From: Campylobacteraceae bacterium
GTDB taxonomy: Bacteria > Campylobacterota > Campylobacteria > Campylobacterales > Sulfurospirillaceae
Reading direction: 5' to 3'
Assembly: GCA_027050775.1 (NCBI GenBank)
Contig: JALUBH010000031.1
Span: 1 to 64,000, forward strand
Length of the DNA stretch: 64,000 nt
Program-made: the position numbers and the translations under genes
The notes under the pieces: generated by a model
Told to the model about the DNA's origin: nothing
Seen by the model: only the letters and a program-made list of their open reading frames with translations
The model's database searches: none
Shown here: positions 55,429 to 62,109 of the stretch, piece after piece
Layout: each line of letters begins with the position of its first letter
Numbering within the stretch: position 1 is the first letter of the stretch

Positions 55429-55442
55429 CTCTACATGTAGAG
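55429..55442. repeat. Copy of CTCTACATGTAGAG in the riboswitch leader
   Basis: A perfect intergenic 14-mer whose last base is the first base of the riboswitch stem P1. Confidence 0.9.
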
Positions 55443-55491
55443 GTGATGGAGTTCACCCTGATAGTTCTTTTGAGCTGATGACTCCTATGAG
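55442..55491 (+). ncRNA. Fluoride riboswitch (crcB motif)
   Basis: The stretch GGTGATGGAGTTCACC (55442-55457) forms the P1 stem GGUG/CACC. The short stem GUUC/GAGC with a UUUU loop is at 55464-55475. It is followed directly by TGATGACTCCTA (55476-55487). GGAGU in the first loop can pair with ACUCC in the last segment, the pseudoknot that defines the fluoride aptamer. The order GG-GATGG...GCTGATGA..CCTA matches the crcB-motif consensus as remembered. It ends a few bases before AAAAAGGGA and the ATG at 55506. No terminator is visible, so translational control is likely. Confidence 0.85.
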
Positions 55492-55505
55492 AAAAAGGGA
55501 TTTTA

Positions 55506-57026
55506 ATGCAATTTTATAGCATACTTTTTGATAAAACTAACAGAGCCAAAGAGCTTTTGCCTTCACTTGATTTTTATAGAGATTTGAATTTGGATCAAAT
55601 CATAGATGCCACCGTCTCTTACAAAAAAGAGTATGATTTTAAAAAGTTTTTCTATACTCCGCTTGATGACATACAGACTATAACTTACAGACAAGAGATC
55701 ATAAAAGACCTACAAAATGATGAATTTTACCTCAGAGTTGATGAGTTTTGCCAAGAGATGTTGAGGATAAAGGAATATCAAAAACTTGTAGAAGAACCTG
55801 ATTATGATATTTACAAAAACAGTTGGTTTTTTCAGATGGCATTGGCGTATATCCGGGCTTTAAATACTTTTTATGAGTCATTAGAATCTGCTAATTTACA
55901 CTCAGATGGTTTGATTTTGTTTCGTGATTATTTTAAGACATACTTGAAGAGCGAAGGCTTTAAATCACTACAAAATGATATGGAATCTTTAAAAGAGCAA
56001 TTAGACTCGATTATGTATGATATAACGATACTTGGACTCACCTTTAAAGTGAAGAGATATGAAAATGAAGAGGATTATTCACTGGAAACCAAAGAAGTAT
56101 TTAAAAAGTTTGAACAGAATGATACAAGTGAGATAAAAAGTCAATTTGAAAAAAATAGAGGAATAAATCATGTAAATGCAAAAATTCTAGAGTTTGTGAG
56201 TAAGCTATATCCAAAGGTCTTTAGCACTTTGCGTGAATTTTGCGATAAATATATAGATTTTGTCGACGAAACTTTTCAAACCTTTGCATGGGAAGTTGAG
56301 TTTTATATATCATATCTAAGCTATATCTCTGAAACTAAAGAAAGATTTTGTTTTCCACATATGAGTAGCGAGAACAAAAGTATAGAGGTTATGGGCGGAT
56401 TTGATTTGGCACTTGCCTATAGTTTGGTGTTTGAGAAAAAAAGGGTTGTTACAAATGACTATATATTGGAAAAACAAGAGAGGATTATGATAGTTTCAGG
56501 AGCAAATCAAGGTGGTAAATCGACCTTCTCAAGAGCATTTGGACAGATAAACTATCTAGCTAGTTTAGGTTTGCCTGTGCCGGCAAGTGAAGCAAAACTT
56601 TTTTTAGTAGATAGAGTATTTACTCACTTTGAAAGGGAAGAGCACATAGGCAATCTACACAGTAAATTGCAAGAAGATTTAGTAAGGATTCATAAGATTT
56701 TAGAAGAGGCTACACCAAAAAGTCTAGTGATATTAAATGAGATTTTCTCTTCTACATCTCTCAAAGATGCGATTTTTCTCAGCAAAAATATTATGGACAG
56801 GATTGTAGAGCTAGATTTATTGTGTGTATGGGTAACTTTTATAGACGAGCTAAGTAAAATAAATGAAAAAACGGTGAGTATGGTGAGTCTCATAGATATA
56901 GATCACATAGAAAATCGTACATACAAAATCATAAAAAAAGAGTCCGATGGTCTGGCTTATGCTAAATCCATCGCTAAAAAATATCATCTAAGTAGTGAAC
57001 AAATATTGCAAAGGATAGAAAAGTGA
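55506..57026 (+). CDS. MutS-like ATPase, first of a tandem pair
   Basis: A 506-residue protein resembling only the lever/core and ATPase domains of MutS (about 1-320 helical; 320-500 ATPase). It lacks the mismatch-recognition domain. Walker A is SGANQGGKSTF (about 330-340). Walker B reads VILNEIFSSTS (N411, E412), with Asn in place of the usual Asp. It overlaps the next, paralogous gene by 4 bp. It is preceded by a fluoride riboswitch, so it is likely induced by fluoride. DNA binding and function are unproven. Confidence 0.85.
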   Translation: MQFYSILFDKTNRAKELLPSLDFYRDLNLDQIIDATVSYKKEYDFKKFFYTPLDDIQTITYRQEIIKDLQNDEFYLRVDEFCQEMLRIKEYQKLVEEPDYDIYKNSWFFQMALAYIRALNTFYESLESANLHSDGLILFRDYFKTYLKSEGFKSLQNDMESLKEQLDSIMYDITILGLTFKVKRYENEEDYSLETKEVFKKFEQNDTSEIKSQFEKNRGINHVNAKILEFVSKLYPKVFSTLREFCDKYIDFVDETFQTFAWEVEFYISYLSYISETKERFCFPHMSSENKSIEVMGGFDLALAYSLVFEKKRVVTNDYILEKQERIMIVSGANQGGKSTFSRAFGQINYLASLGLPVPASEAKLFLVDRVFTHFEREEHIGNLHSKLQEDLVRIHKILEEATPKSLVILNEIFSSTSLKDAIFLSKNIMDRIVELDLLCVWVTFIDELSKINEKTVSMVSLIDIDHIENRTYKIIKKESDGLAYAKSIAKKYHLSSEQILQRIEK

Positions 57027-58510
57027 GAGTTTTTCTTATGCACCGGCAAAAAGATTTTGACATAAAAGAGAACTTACCGCCAAATAGCGATATACTTATG
57101 AGTGATTTGGAGCTAGAGGTCTTGTTGGAAACTATGTCAGAAGATGATGATTTTTTGTATGATATATCAAAAACAGCTCTATTGTGCAGTTTAAAATCCA
57201 AAGAAGATGTATTGTATCGTCAAGATATTTTAAAAGATTGTCTGCATAATCCTGATATTGTAAAAGCTATATATGATCTCACTATCAAATCTCTTGAAAA
57301 AAAGCAGCAAAATTGGCTTGGTGTCTTTGGAAGGTATCCTGCTTCTTTACTCGGCAGTAGTGTCTCTTTGCTCAGTATGTATTTTGAGCTTTTAAAAGAA
57401 TTAAGAACAATTGTCGATGAAAACAGAGATAAATTTAACTCAATTGGGTTTAAAAGATTTTTTTCTATGATTCAAAAGGAGCTTGATAATGACTATTTTG
57501 AAGTGGTCAAAGAGCACTTAAAAGAGTTAAAATTCAAAAAAGGAGTCTTGATAAGTGCGAAACTCACTCAGGCGTATGAAGGAGCCGATTACACTCTTAG
57601 AAGAGATAAAATGGCATCAAAAAGCTGGATTGGTAAAGTTTTAACAAAAAAATCAAAAGAGTATTCTCATGCTTTGCACCCAAGAGATGATGCAGGAGCT
57701 AAGGTTCTTAGAAATCTAAGAGATGAAGGTCTCAATGATGTTGCAAACTCTCTGAGTTCTTCTGCTACGCATGTGGATAATTTTTTTATATCTCTAAGGA
57801 GAGAATTATCTTTTTATATAGGATGTATCAACTTAGATAAAAAATTGCAAGAGTTAAATTGCAAGAGTGTTTTTCCAAATATTATCTCTAAAAATAACTT
57901 TAATTTTTTGGTAAAAGATTTATATGATATTTCTCTAGCATTGGTTTTGGATAAAAAGATAGTTGGAAACGATATAGATGCAAATAATAAAAAACTCTTT
58001 ATCGTCACAGGAGCAAATCAAGGCGGGAAAACCACTTTTTTAAGAAGTGTTGGCTTAGCGCAACTTATGATGCAGTGCGGTATGTTCGTCTCATCCTCCT
58101 CTTATGAAACAACACTTTGTAGCGGTATTTTTACTCACTTCAAAAAAGAGGAAGACAAAGAGATGAAAAGTGGTAAGTTTGATGAAGAATTAGCTAGAAT
58201 GAGCGATATAGTGGATCAAATTTCACCAAATGCTCTAGTTTTGTTTAACGAATCATTTGCATCAACAAACGAAGCAGAGGGATCACAAATAGCGCAACAA
58301 ATCATAAAGGCTTTGATGCAAAGAGATATAAGGGTGTTTTTTATCACTCACATGTACGAGTTGGCAAACTATTTTTACGAAAAAGAGACAAATAACACTC
58401 TGTTTCTAAGAGCAAACCGTAATAAAGACGGAAATAGAGACTTCAAAATCATAAAAGCCCCGCCTCTACAAACCAGCTTTGCCAAAGATATATACGATAC
58501 TATCTTTTAA
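57023..58510 (+). CDS. MutS-like ATPase, second of a tandem pair
   Basis: A 495-residue paralogue of the preceding protein with the same layout. Walker A is TGANQGGKTTFLRS (about 328-341), Walker B is LVLFNESFASTN (N409, E410, again Asn for Asp), and the following helix ITHMYELANYF resembles the MutS dimer helix. It may form a heterodimer with its neighbour, as MutS ATPases dimerise through these domains. A terminator follows at once, closing a two-gene operon under the riboswitch. Confidence 0.85.
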   Translation: MRVFLMHRQKDFDIKENLPPNSDILMSDLELEVLLETMSEDDDFLYDISKTALLCSLKSKEDVLYRQDILKDCLHNPDIVKAIYDLTIKSLEKKQQNWLGVFGRYPASLLGSSVSLLSMYFELLKELRTIVDENRDKFNSIGFKRFFSMIQKELDNDYFEVVKEHLKELKFKKGVLISAKLTQAYEGADYTLRRDKMASKSWIGKVLTKKSKEYSHALHPRDDAGAKVLRNLRDEGLNDVANSLSSSATHVDNFFISLRRELSFYIGCINLDKKLQELNCKSVFPNIISKNNFNFLVKDLYDISLALVLDKKIVGNDIDANNKKLFIVTGANQGGKTTFLRSVGLAQLMMQCGMFVSSSSYETTLCSGIFTHFKKEEDKEMKSGKFDEELARMSDIVDQISPNALVLFNESFASTNEAEGSQIAQQIIKALMQRDIRVFFITHMYELANYFYEKETNNTLFLRANRNKDGNRDFKIIKAPPLQTSFAKDIYDTIF

Positions 58511-58536
58511 GAGACCGCTGTACAGTGGTCTCTTTA
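58507..58536 (+). terminator. Terminator of the MutS-like operon
   Basis: AAGAGACC (58509-58516) pairs with GGTCTCTT (58527-58534), and the stem can continue through CTG/CAG. A TTTAAG and later AATTTTTG follow. It starts at the stop codon. Confidence 0.65.
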
Positions 58537-58575: not shown

Positions 58576-61500
58576 ATGGAATTTACTCATTTACACTTAC
58601 ATACAGAATATTCACTCCTAGATGGTGCCAATAAAATAGGCAAACTTGCTGATGAGCTTAAGGCTCAAGGCGTAAAATCTGTGGCTATCACAGATCACGG
58701 CAATATGTTTGGAGCCATAGACTTTTATAAGACTATGCGCTCGGTTGGTATAAAGCCGATAATCGGTATGGAAGCTTATATTCACAATCAAGATGATATA
58801 GGCGATAAAACTACAAAGCAGAGATTTCACCTCTGTCTTTTGGCTAAAAATGAGATAGGTTATAAAAATCTTATGTATCTTTCAAGCCAGAGTTTTATAC
58901 ATGGTTTTTACTACTATCCTCGCATAAATAAGAAGATGTTGAGGGAACACAGTGAAGGGCTTATCTGTTCGTCTGCATGTTTGCAAGGTGAGGTAAATTG
59001 GCACTTAAATACAAATAATCCTAGAAATGTTCAGTTTGGTGCGAAAGGGTATGAGAGGGCAAAAGAGGTGGCACTTGAATACAAAGATATATTTGGTGAT
59101 GATTTTTATCTTGAGCTTATGAGACACGGTATAAATGACCAGCTTTTTATAGACAACAGCACGCTAAAAATCTCAAAAGAGACAGGTATCAAGATAATAG
59201 CCACAAATGACACTCACTACTTAAAGCCAGACAATGCCGAGGCACATGAGGCTTTTATGTGTATCGCTATGAATAAAGAGTTTGACGATCCAAAGAGACT
59301 TCGTCACTCCGTGCATGAGTTTTATCTTAAATCTCCACAAGAGATATGTGAACTTTATGCTGATATACCAGAAGCCATAGAAAATACCCAAGAAATAGTT
59401 GAAAAATGTAATCTTGAGATAAAATTAGGAGATCCGACTCCTCCAAAATTTAAATTTACAAAAGAGTATGCCAAGGCTGAGGGTTTAGAGTATGATAATG
59501 ATGATGAATTTTTTAGATACCAATGTGAAAAAGGGCTACAAGAGAGATTAAAACTTGTAGATACCAGTTTGCATGAAGAGTATAAAAAGAGACTAGAGAG
59601 GGAGATGGATGTTATATGCAATATGAAATTTCCAGGCTACATGTTGATAGTTTGGGATTTTATACGAGAAGCGAAAGATAAAAAAGTGCCTGTTGGACCT
59701 GGTCGAGGAAGTGCAGCTGGAAGTTTGGTGGCATATTCACTTTTTATCACAGATATTGACCCCATGAAGTATGATCTTCTTTTTGAGAGATTTCTAAATC
59801 CGGAGAGAGTAAGTATGCCAGATATTGATATCGACTTTTGTCAAAGCAGGCGAGGGGAGATTATAGACTATGTGGTGCAAAAGTATGGTAGATACAATGT
59901 CGCTCAAGTCATCACCTTTGGAAAACTCTTGGCAAAGGGAGTGATTCGTGATGTCGCGCGAGTTTTGGGTGTAGAATATGCTAAAGCTGACAAGATGGCA
60001 AAACTCATACCTGATGAGCTTGGTATCACACTTAATGGCAAGATGAAAAACGGAAAAAAAGTAGATGGAGCTTTTCAAAAAGAGGAGAAGCTTAGAAAGT
60101 GGATAGAAGAAGATTCTCAAATCGCAAGAGTTTGGAAGTTTGCGCTTGCACTTGAAGGATTAAATCGAAACTCAGGTATGCATGCAGCAGGAGTTGTGAT
60201 CAGTGATGAGGAACTTTGGTACAAAACTCCGCTATATAAGCCCTCAGGCGAAGATCAACAGCTTGTTACCCAGTATTCACTAAACTATCTTGAAGATGTG
60301 GATTTGATAAAATTTGACTTTTTGGGTCTAAAAACTCTTACGGTTATAGACAATGCACTTAAGCTGATCAAGCGAAGATATGACAAAGATATAGATTTTA
60401 ACACACTTGATGTAAATGACCAGAATATATATAAACTTATCCAAAGCGGACATACAATAGGGCTTTTTCAGATAGAATCAAGCGGTATGCAGTCGCTAAA
60501 TGAGAGGTTAAAACCTACAGCATTTGAAGACTTGATTGCGGTTCTTGCACTCTATCGACCAGGTCCTATGGAATCAGGCATGTTAGATGATTTTATAGAC
60601 AGAAAACATGGCGTAAAAGAGATAGACTACTTTTATGACGAGTTTACAAAGCCACTAGAGCCTATACTAAAGCCGACTTATGGAGTTATAGTTTACCAAG
60701 AGCAAGTTATGCAGATAGTTCAAGCCATAGGGGGATTTAGTCTAGGAAAAGCGGATGTCGTCCGTCGTGCAATGGGTAAGAAAAAAATTGACTTAATGAA
60801 AAAATATAAAGTAGAGTTTGCAAACGGAGCAAAAGAGCAGGGTTACAAGTATGAACATGCGATAGAACTCTTTGAATTGATAGAGAAGTTTGCAGGCTAT
60901 GGTTTTAATAAATCCCACTCTGCTGCTTATGCGATGATAACATTTCAAACTGCTTATCTTAAGTGTTATTATCCTCAAGAGTTTATGGCAGCCCTCTTGA
61001 CAAGTGAGCAGGACAATACAGATAAGATAGTCAAATATATAGATGAGGTAAAAAGACTTGGCATCAAGCTTTCACCTCCGAGTGTCAGAAGAAGTATGAT
61101 TGAGTTTACAGCCATAAAAGACGAGGAAGGTGACGAGACTATACTCTTTGGATTAGGAGCATTGAAGGGCATGGGAAGTTCAGCCATCACAAAGATACTT
61201 GAAGCTAGAGAGGATAGTGGCTTTAGTGATTTGGACGATTTTCTCTCAAAAATTGATACTTCAAAAGTAAATAAAAGAGTTATAGAATCACTCATAAAAT
61301 CAGGAAGTTTTGATGGATTCTCTTACACAAGACGAGCGATGCTTGATAATATAGAGAAGATTGTGGAAACAGCCGGAGAGTGTGCGAGAGCTAAAAAGAT
61401 GGCAGAAAATTCACTCTTTGGAGATGACAAAGAACTCATAGCTCTACATGTAGAGATAGAAAATGTTCCTGAATTTGATATGAAAAAGGTATTGGAATTT

Positions 61501-62109
61501 GAAAAAGAGACGATGGGTTTCTATGTCTCGGGACATCCATTGGATGAGTTTAGAGAAGAGATAGATGGTATAAACTACACGCTCTCTAGTGAAGTTGAAA
61601 ATTTAGGTGATGGTAGTACGGCCCTATTTATAGGAAAAGTAGAAGAGATAGTTGAAAAAATTAGTAAAAAAGGCAATAAATTTGCGATTTTAAATCTTAT
61701 GGATTTTCACGGAAACATCGAAATCACGCTTTTTTCAAAACACTTGGATAAAATACAAAGTATGAATAAAGAAGAGCCAATATGCCTGAAAGTAGCGGTC
61801 TCTAGAGATGATAGAGGCATAAATAAAAGAGTCCTTAAAATCTTGGATTTAAAAGATGCAAAAAAAGAGAAAACAGATACAAAAACTATAGAGGTTCCGT
61901 CTGAGCCGAAAACTCTCATCATTGATTTTAGTGAAGATAGTAAGATTTTGGATGATGTCTATAGGCTAGTGAGAGAAAACCCGGGCAATAGACCGCTAAA
62001 ACTCGTAATTTCATCAAAACTTCAAGACATAATCATAGAGACATACCTAAAAGTTTCAGATGATATAGATGAAAAAGTTAAAGAGATAGAGTTGGTAAAA
62101 GTTGCCTAA
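58576..62109 (+). CDS. dnaE: DNA polymerase III alpha subunit
   Basis: A 1177-residue replicative polymerase. The N-terminal PHP domain is THLHLHTEYSLLDGA (residues 4-18). Palm-domain acidic residues are in VGPGRGSAAGS and MPDIDIDF (about 414-422). Next come a helix-hairpin-helix region and an OB-fold (FIGKVEEIVEKISKKGNKF near 1015). Length and order are standard for Campylobacterota DnaE. The 3' end overlaps the convergent regulator gene by 4 bp. Confidence 0.97.
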   Translation: MEFTHLHLHTEYSLLDGANKIGKLADELKAQGVKSVAITDHGNMFGAIDFYKTMRSVGIKPIIGMEAYIHNQDDIGDKTTKQRFHLCLLAKNEIGYKNLMYLSSQSFIHGFYYYPRINKKMLREHSEGLICSSACLQGEVNWHLNTNNPRNVQFGAKGYERAKEVALEYKDIFGDDFYLELMRHGINDQLFIDNSTLKISKETGIKIIATNDTHYLKPDNAEAHEAFMCIAMNKEFDDPKRLRHSVHEFYLKSPQEICELYADIPEAIENTQEIVEKCNLEIKLGDPTPPKFKFTKEYAKAEGLEYDNDDEFFRYQCEKGLQERLKLVDTSLHEEYKKRLEREMDVICNMKFPGYMLIVWDFIREAKDKKVPVGPGRGSAAGSLVAYSLFITDIDPMKYDLLFERFLNPERVSMPDIDIDFCQSRRGEIIDYVVQKYGRYNVAQVITFGKLLAKGVIRDVARVLGVEYAKADKMAKLIPDELGITLNGKMKNGKKVDGAFQKEEKLRKWIEEDSQIARVWKFALALEGLNRNSGMHAAGVVISDEELWYKTPLYKPSGEDQQLVTQYSLNYLEDVDLIKFDFLGLKTLTVIDNALKLIKRRYDKDIDFNTLDVNDQNIYKLIQSGHTIGLFQIESSGMQSLNERLKPTAFEDLIAVLALYRPGPMESGMLDDFIDRKHGVKEIDYFYDEFTKPLEPILKPTYGVIVYQEQVMQIVQAIGGFSLGKADVVRRAMGKKKIDLMKKYKVEFANGAKEQGYKYEHAIELFELIEKFAGYGFNKSHSAAYAMITFQTAYLKCYYPQEFMAALLTSEQDNTDKIVKYIDEVKRLGIKLSPPSVRRSMIEFTAIKDEEGDETILFGLGALKGMGSSAITKILEAREDSGFSDLDDFLSKIDTSKVNKRVIESLIKSGSFDGFSYTRRAMLDNIEKIVETAGECARAKKMAENSLFGDDKELIALHVEIENVPEFDMKKVLEFEKETMGFYVSGHPLDEFREEIDGINYTLSSEVENLGDGSTALFIGKVEEIVEKISKKGNKFAILNLMDFHGNIEITLFSKHLDKIQSMNKEEPICLKVAVSRDDRGINKRVLKILDLKDAKKEKTDTKTIEVPSEPKTLIIDFSEDSKILDDVYRLVRENPGNRPLKLVISSKLQDIIIETYLKVSDDIDEKVKEIELVKVA
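61442..61455. repeat. Copy of CTCTACATGTAGAG
   Basis: A perfect 14-mer inside dnaE, read as Leu-His-Val-Glu in a variable part of the protein. Confidence 0.9.

Follow-up and report, generated by a model that had tools for sequence, protein, structure and literature searches.

Why RNAs that sense fluoride should stand in front of genes annotated as mutS has been an open question since 2010, when crcB-motif RNAs were reported to precede such genes with only the words 'DNA repair (mutS)' in the text (Weinberg 2010, PMC2864571). The question is raised again by a 64,000-nucleotide stretch from a Campylobacteraceae bacterium (GenBank assembly GCA_027050775.1, contig JALUBH010000031.1, positions 1 to 64,000; hereafter the window), in which an aptamer of this class is followed by two overlapping genes, A and B, encoding MutS-like ATPases. 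Both this class of RNA and its occurrence with mutS-type genes are already known; the comparisons described here indicate that the genes encode a distinct and obligate pair of ATPases, able to move horizontally and associated with the largest fluoride regulons, rather than ordinary mismatch repair proteins, such that the association becomes a testable two-protein system. The favoured reading, held tentatively and with slightly less than even confidence, is that a fluoride-ON riboswitch, probably translational, controls an obligate heteromeric A+B MutS-core ATPase that forms part of the fluoride-tolerance set of bacteria and would relieve fluoride damage.

The fluoride riboswitch and its linkage to the gene pair

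A scan of the whole window against Rfam returned a single match, to RF01734 (Fluoride), at 55433-55494. It scores 39.9 bits (E = 1.4e-7), the gathering score being 34, and the alignment spans the full length of the model (positions 1-64 of 64). A previous inspection of the letters alone (the sequence-only reading) had recognised the crcB motif in this leader and suggested the covariance-model check that this match provides; every stem, loop and pseudoknot strand that it named at 55442-55491 is present, its start alone requiring correction, as the match begins approximately 9 nt earlier. The two pseudoknot strands are complementary at every position, the conserved UGAUGACUCCUA is unbroken in the RF01734 alignment, and the ATG of gene A lies 12 nt 3' of the end of the match. 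Being full-length, above the gathering score and followed by a MutS-like gene, the RNA falls into a class already listed in 2010 (PMC2864571).

The level of conservation within the genus was also studied. The A-B pair is present in seven of nine congeners, in three of which (G002, G004 and G007) a riboswitch scoring 43.8 bits directly precedes the same genes. A fourth (G003) has a putative decayed riboswitch before the pair (L123 1590-1700, minus strand, 11.3 bits), which retains its 3' half and is damaged in the first stem and spacer, and in G006 and G008 the pair is present with no motif found upstream. Within the genus, the gene pair is steadier than its riboswitch. It could be argued from the moderate score of the window's aptamer, 5.9 bits over the cut-off, and from the absence or decay of the element in some congeners, that the RNA resembles the motif by chance or is a relic that has ceased to regulate the operon; given that the motif is kept in three congeners and precedes the same genes in distant phyla, this is very improbable indeed. 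Across the phylum, only two of 298 sampled genomes carry the pair, this one included, and the difference between this frequency and that within the genus points to horizontal acquisition.

The linkage is not peculiar to this genus. A profile search of bacterial genomes identified at least 537 relatives of B, of which the best 80, from many phyla, were taken. A is directly upstream of B in all 80 loci where the contig is long enough (L051 starts too near B), and at 72 of the 79 measurable junctions the two reading frames overlap by exactly 4 nt, as they do in the window; A and B are an obligate pair. Riboswitches were called with a custom model, R1, which was trained in part on MutS-linked switches, and direct calls were cross-checked with Rfam. 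Among the 72 loci with upstream sequence, 40 have a riboswitch on the same strand within 500 nt, all of which are also Rfam matches (35 above the gathering score), and ten more have one on the same strand farther upstream. At least one fluoride riboswitch is found in 37 and 35 genomes of two batches of 40, which have one genome in common.

As the best 80 represent only the nearest relatives, an even sample of 199 Bacillota genomes was taken, its centre being one of the genomes with the pair. Riboswitches occur in 83 of these genomes and the pair in eight, all eight of which are riboswitch-positive (P = 7e-4, or 0.002 without the sample centre); furthermore, the pair is present in eight of the twelve genomes with three or more riboswitches, compared with none of the other 187 (P = 9e-12), although, owing to shared ancestry, these P values are on the optimistic side. 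Eight of the nine Bacillota copies lie approximately 66-410 nt behind a riboswitch, and the ninth at 1.7 kb. The suggestion of the sequence-only reading that crcB-motif RNAs recur before MutS-type genes is borne out both by the 2010 report and by these counts. Hence, from sequence comparison, regulation of A-B by a fluoride riboswitch is well supported, and the window copy would be expected to respond to fluoride.

How it might do so is suggested by the leader. No terminator was found 3' of the aptamer by a terminator scan. In the lowest-energy ligand-free folds of the G002, G004 and G007 leaders, ACUCC pairs with the ribosome-binding region, while in that of the window the AGGG of this region pairs with CCCU (55456-55459), beside the first stem; only ligand-free folds were used for this argument. 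Because ACUCC is also a pseudoknot strand, fluoride binding should free the ribosome-binding site, making this probably a fluoride-ON switch acting on translation. Without fluoride, ACUCC or the neighbouring CCCU would be paired with the ribosome-binding site of gene A; with fluoride and Mg2+, the aptamer would draw ACUCC into the pseudoknot and release it, and gene B would be expressed through translational coupling across the 4-nt overlap. Relative to the mutS association described in 2010, the locus thus differs in having an obligate pair without mismatch domains and a switch that seems to be translational, not terminator-based. A perfect 14-nt palindrome, CTCTACATGTAGAG, at 55429-55442 overlaps the 5' end of the aptamer. 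Three congeners mostly keep it, and it may serve as an operator or form a competing hairpin.

The organism has a second fluoride riboswitch (L003 5774-5839 on contig C28, minus strand, 45.4 bits), which precedes an operon for hydrogenase-4 or formate-hydrogenlyase-like membrane subunits. The crcB motif was noted in 2010 before two enigmatic classes of gene, mutS and formate hydrogen lyase (PMC2864571), and the two riboswitch targets in this genome thus represent both. Its crcB gene, which scores above the TIGR00494 cut-off, lies in the region of the second riboswitch, upstream of an htpG-like gene, and no riboswitch of its own was found.

The ATPase cores of A and B

The claim that two overlapping genes for MutS-like ATPases follow the aptamer holds, MutS_V being the only Pfam domain above its cut-off in either protein. 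AlphaFold2 models of the single chains, built on 55-sequence alignments, match the cores of MutS, MSH2 and MutS2 (Table 1). The structural alignment begins near residue 258 of E. coli MutS, which implies that neither protein has a mismatch-recognition or connector domain; roughly where the clamp would be, the models show a small beta-hairpin of low confidence. By their fold, P-loop and Walker B glutamate, A and B belong to the MutS/ABC-type ATPase superfamily, with the Walker B aspartate changed to asparagine. Across the 55 pairs, the GANQGGK-type P-loop and the catalytic glutamate are invariant, while Walker B reads NE in 55 of 55 A and 54 of 55 B sequences (N411-E412 and N409-E410 in the window) where MutS-type proteins have DE. 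The ST-F signature is replaced by G-K-L or similar, and the position of the switch histidine is occupied by phenylalanine in every A and histidine in every B. The Walker B substitution is one that was made deliberately in a laboratory mutant of E. coli MutS, D693N (PDB 3k0s). The retention of P-loop, asparagine and glutamate together suggests that selection maintains an altered ATPase cycle, and argues against decay.

One interpretation of such proteins is that they are nucleic-acid repair or recombination factors, called for when fluoride stress leads to DNA damage or to an imbalance of the nucleotide pools. They have the MutS_V domain and core fold in common with MutS1 and MSH proteins and are publicly annotated as mismatch repair proteins, a DNA-damaging stress was suggested in 2010 (PMC2864571), and a MutS-type core can embrace DNA with its lever and clamp without a mismatch domain. 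However, the mismatch-recognition and connector domains of the repair proteins are missing, and A and B fall far below the curated cut-offs, scoring no more than 106.3 bits for the MutS1 model TIGR01070 (cut-off 480) and 92.1 for NF003810 (cut-off 641.7), and 67.7 and 95.1 bits for the MutS2 model TIGR01069 (cut-off 400). Their Walker B and signature motifs are altered, their neighbours are metabolic and transport genes rather than repair genes, and the genome encodes a regular MutS2 (548.3 bits to TIGR01069). This explanation appears rather unlikely, and the fluoride-response activity on nucleic acid proposed in the sequence-only reading is not supported: the genes that recur beside the pair encode fluoride exporters and enzymes that fluoride inhibits. 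For hundreds of genes, the name 'DNA mismatch repair protein MutS' is probably wrong.

A second interpretation draws on MutS2, with which A and B share the lever, the small clamp position and the ABC-type ATPase. The fold matches (Z about 27-30) include the ribosome-bound MutS2 structure 7qv3 (Z about 27.5), and MutS2 uses its ATPase to split stalled ribosomes (PMC10897456). The A-B pair might likewise split ribosomes that stall when translational GTPases are blocked, or factors depleted, by fluoride complexes. Yet MutS2 is the product of one gene and has DE and STF motifs, whereas A-B is encoded by two genes, has NE and GKL, and lacks KOW and SMR, the domains by which MutS2 is recruited, neither being found with Pfam; the genome has a MutS2 of its own, and no recurrent ribosome-rescue gene was found among the neighbours of the pair. 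A role at the ribosome is accordingly considered unlikely.

KamC (NF052383) offers a further comparison, being also a MutS-core protein of approximately 500 residues without DNA-recognition domains. It is named a lysine 5,6-aminomutase reactivase ATPase by NCBIfam, i.e. it acts on an enzyme. Membership of A and B in this family, a lead from NCBIfam, was rejected, as their scores of 58.5 and 81.9 bits lie below the cut-off of 300 and their motifs differ, and KamC is retained as an analogy. In Thermoanaerobacter wiegelii, which also has an A-B pair, the true KamC reaches 607 bits and retains DE and SSF. By analogy, A+B may work like KamC or like MutS2.

Neighbouring genes and a probable role in fluoride tolerance

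More can be ascertained from the association between the pair and its flanking genes. Enolase is its commonest known neighbour, being found near 21 of the 80 pairs, and crcB is near ten. The pair also occurs on plasmids of Klebsiella, Enterobacter, Citrobacter, Salmonella, Burkholderia, Rhodococcus, Alicyclobacillus and others, and on those of Klebsiella, Enterobacter, Citrobacter, Burkholderia and Rhodococcus it lies amid fluoride-resistance genes, including crcB and enolase. The order on the Enterobacteriaceae plasmids is riboswitch, cation:proton antiporter, uspA, A and B, followed by an opposed crcB-gpmA-eno-uspA-ppaC operon with its own riboswitch, while in Alicyclobacillus and Burkholderia a riboswitch is immediately 5' of A. 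The ppaC-uspA-eno-gpmA-crcB operon of E. cloacae FRM is induced by fluoride and gives high fluoride resistance (PMC5533749), and it is the same genes in the same order, with fluoride riboswitches, that adjoin A-B on these plasmids. In the window, by contrast, the pair stands alone. Recurrently positioned behind fluoride riboswitches and beside fluoride genes, A and B can be counted among the fluoride-resistance set.

In Klebsiella, Enterobacter and Citrobacter, the islands (L014 5374-17262, with sisters L018, L022 and L023) are mobile, being carried by conjugative or mobilizable plasmids, and their two riboswitches lie in opposed operons. Close copies of the pair are present in one of 5,426 E. 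coli genomes. At L063 5178-5423, L079 5153-5382, L088 5002-5327 and L069 5246-5424, two fluoride riboswitches separated by 50-200 nt point away from each other, each towards a separate operon, and fluoride would consequently switch both sides together.

The pair is probably a fluoride-tolerance machine rather than a DNA-repair one. A and B would form a heterodimeric, ATP-driven clamp held together, like a MutS dimer, by the ATPase domains. A protein substrate seems likeliest because of the neighbouring genes and the lack of DNA-recognition domains; most plausibly this would consist of fluoride-poisoned Mg2+ enzymes or assemblies, such as enolase, which would be stripped or remodelled, by analogy with KamC. 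The notion of an ATPase that offsets fluoride poisoning, also raised in the sequence-only reading, gains backing from the recurrent linkage to fluoride genes, the role itself being a prediction. A more specific form is that the heterodimer strips inhibitory Mg-fluoride-phosphate from enolase-type enzymes, and that the Walker B asparagine may permit it to act when Mg2+-fluoride complexes jam ordinary ATPases; this is a doubtful proposition. Were the pair to reactivate poisoned enzymes, it would constitute a third arm of fluoride tolerance, the others being the export of fluoride and the replacement of enzymes, and could aid the engineering of bacteria that make or degrade organofluorines.

Several observations weigh against a fluoride-controlled tolerance ATPase. 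The FRM island confers high resistance and its gene table does not include the MutS pair (PMC5533749), so the pair is not required for resistance. No riboswitch lies within reach at 20 of the 72 loci, and some congeners have the pair without one. Enolase, pyrophosphatase and crcB may adjoin the pair merely through shared regulation. In the leader, the window's competing pairing with the ribosome-binding site contains a mismatch, and folds in which the aptamer was forced gave mixed accessibility values, release of the ribosome-binding site not being consistent because the first stem differs among relatives. Neither protein is close to KamC, MutS2 outscoring both on the KamC model, and a search of the literature found no experiment on the A-B pair. 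The same search retrieved no paper joining 'fluoride riboswitch' with MutS, or MutS with crcB on plasmids; nor did it find the obligate pairing, the departure from DNA-repair MutS, the place in plasmid islands or the dynamin link described below, parts of which may be listed in the 2012 fluoride-ligand paper.

Dynamin-like GTPases and other features

A survey of neighbouring genes made without preconception revealed dynamin-like GTPases with an intact P-loop in at least 15 of the 80 pair loci; only reading frames bearing the P-loop were counted, as some tblastn matches are DUF6062 or fragments lacking it. In the Bacillota sample, a dynamin relative is present in 22 genomes, of which 18 are riboswitch-positive and which include seven of the eight with the pair (P = 6e-7). 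Seven dynamin-like genes in six of these genomes (G348, G484, G505, G520, G554 and G567) begin less than 150 nt behind a fluoride riboswitch. As no paper linking dynamin with a fluoride riboswitch was among the top matches of the literature search, these GTPases are apparently an unreported partner of this RNA class.

This association allows A-B to be pictured at the membrane, working with the adjoining GTPase to protect or repair membranes crossed by HF. The frequency of P-loop-bearing GTPases near the pair and the position of several directly behind riboswitches are in keeping with such a role; on the other hand, most pairs, that of the window among them, have no dynamin gene nearby, and the models of A and B have no membrane-anchoring feature, which makes it quite improbable.

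Across the loci, dynamin-like genes are found 29-141 nt behind fluoride riboswitches at L054 8461-10305 (minus strand), at L052 11478-13157 (plus strand) and in the six Bacillota genomes. Reading frames at L061 2745-3422, L071 11428-12234 and L090 4499-5254, also directly behind fluoride riboswitches, resemble the C-terminal portion of the dynamin-like proteins next to them. Of the 26 proteins of that set, seven are matched by DUF6062.

Table 1. Coordinates of the riboswitch, genes and operon end in the window
Feature	Position	Strand	Basis
Fluoride riboswitch aptamer (crcB motif)	55433-55494	+	RF01734 match; before the same genes in three congeners too
Aptamer P1 stem	GGUG 55442-55445 / CACC 55454-55457	+	
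Aptamer second stem	GUUC 55464-55467 / GAGC 55472-55475	+	
Aptamer pseudoknot	P1 loop GGAGU 55448-55452 with ACUCC 55481-55485	+	
Presumed expression platform: ACUCC 55481-55485 plus ribosome-binding region AAAAAGGG ending at 55499	55481-55499	+	Lowest-energy folds and alignment; inferred
Gene A, 506-aa MutS-core ATPase	55506-57026	+	ORF; Pfam MutS_V 78.1 bits; model pLDDT 85.4; fold match Z up to 30.7; motif counts
Gene B, 495-aa MutS-core ATPase, GTG start overlapping the end of A	57023-58510	+	ORF; Pfam MutS_V 82 bits; model pLDDT 86.7; fold match Z up to 30.7; motif counts
11-bp hairpin at operon end	58509-58534	+	-17.7 kcal/mol, z = -4.69

No match to an anti-phage defence system was identified with PADLOC. 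The operon had been described as closed by a terminator, and a stable hairpin is indeed present at its end; its U-tract is short and it is missing from the list produced by the consensus terminator scan, hence it is probably a terminator with a weak U-tract. The next reading frame, 3' of this hairpin, is a long one (58576-62109) that looks like the alpha subunit of DNA polymerase III from its predicted product.

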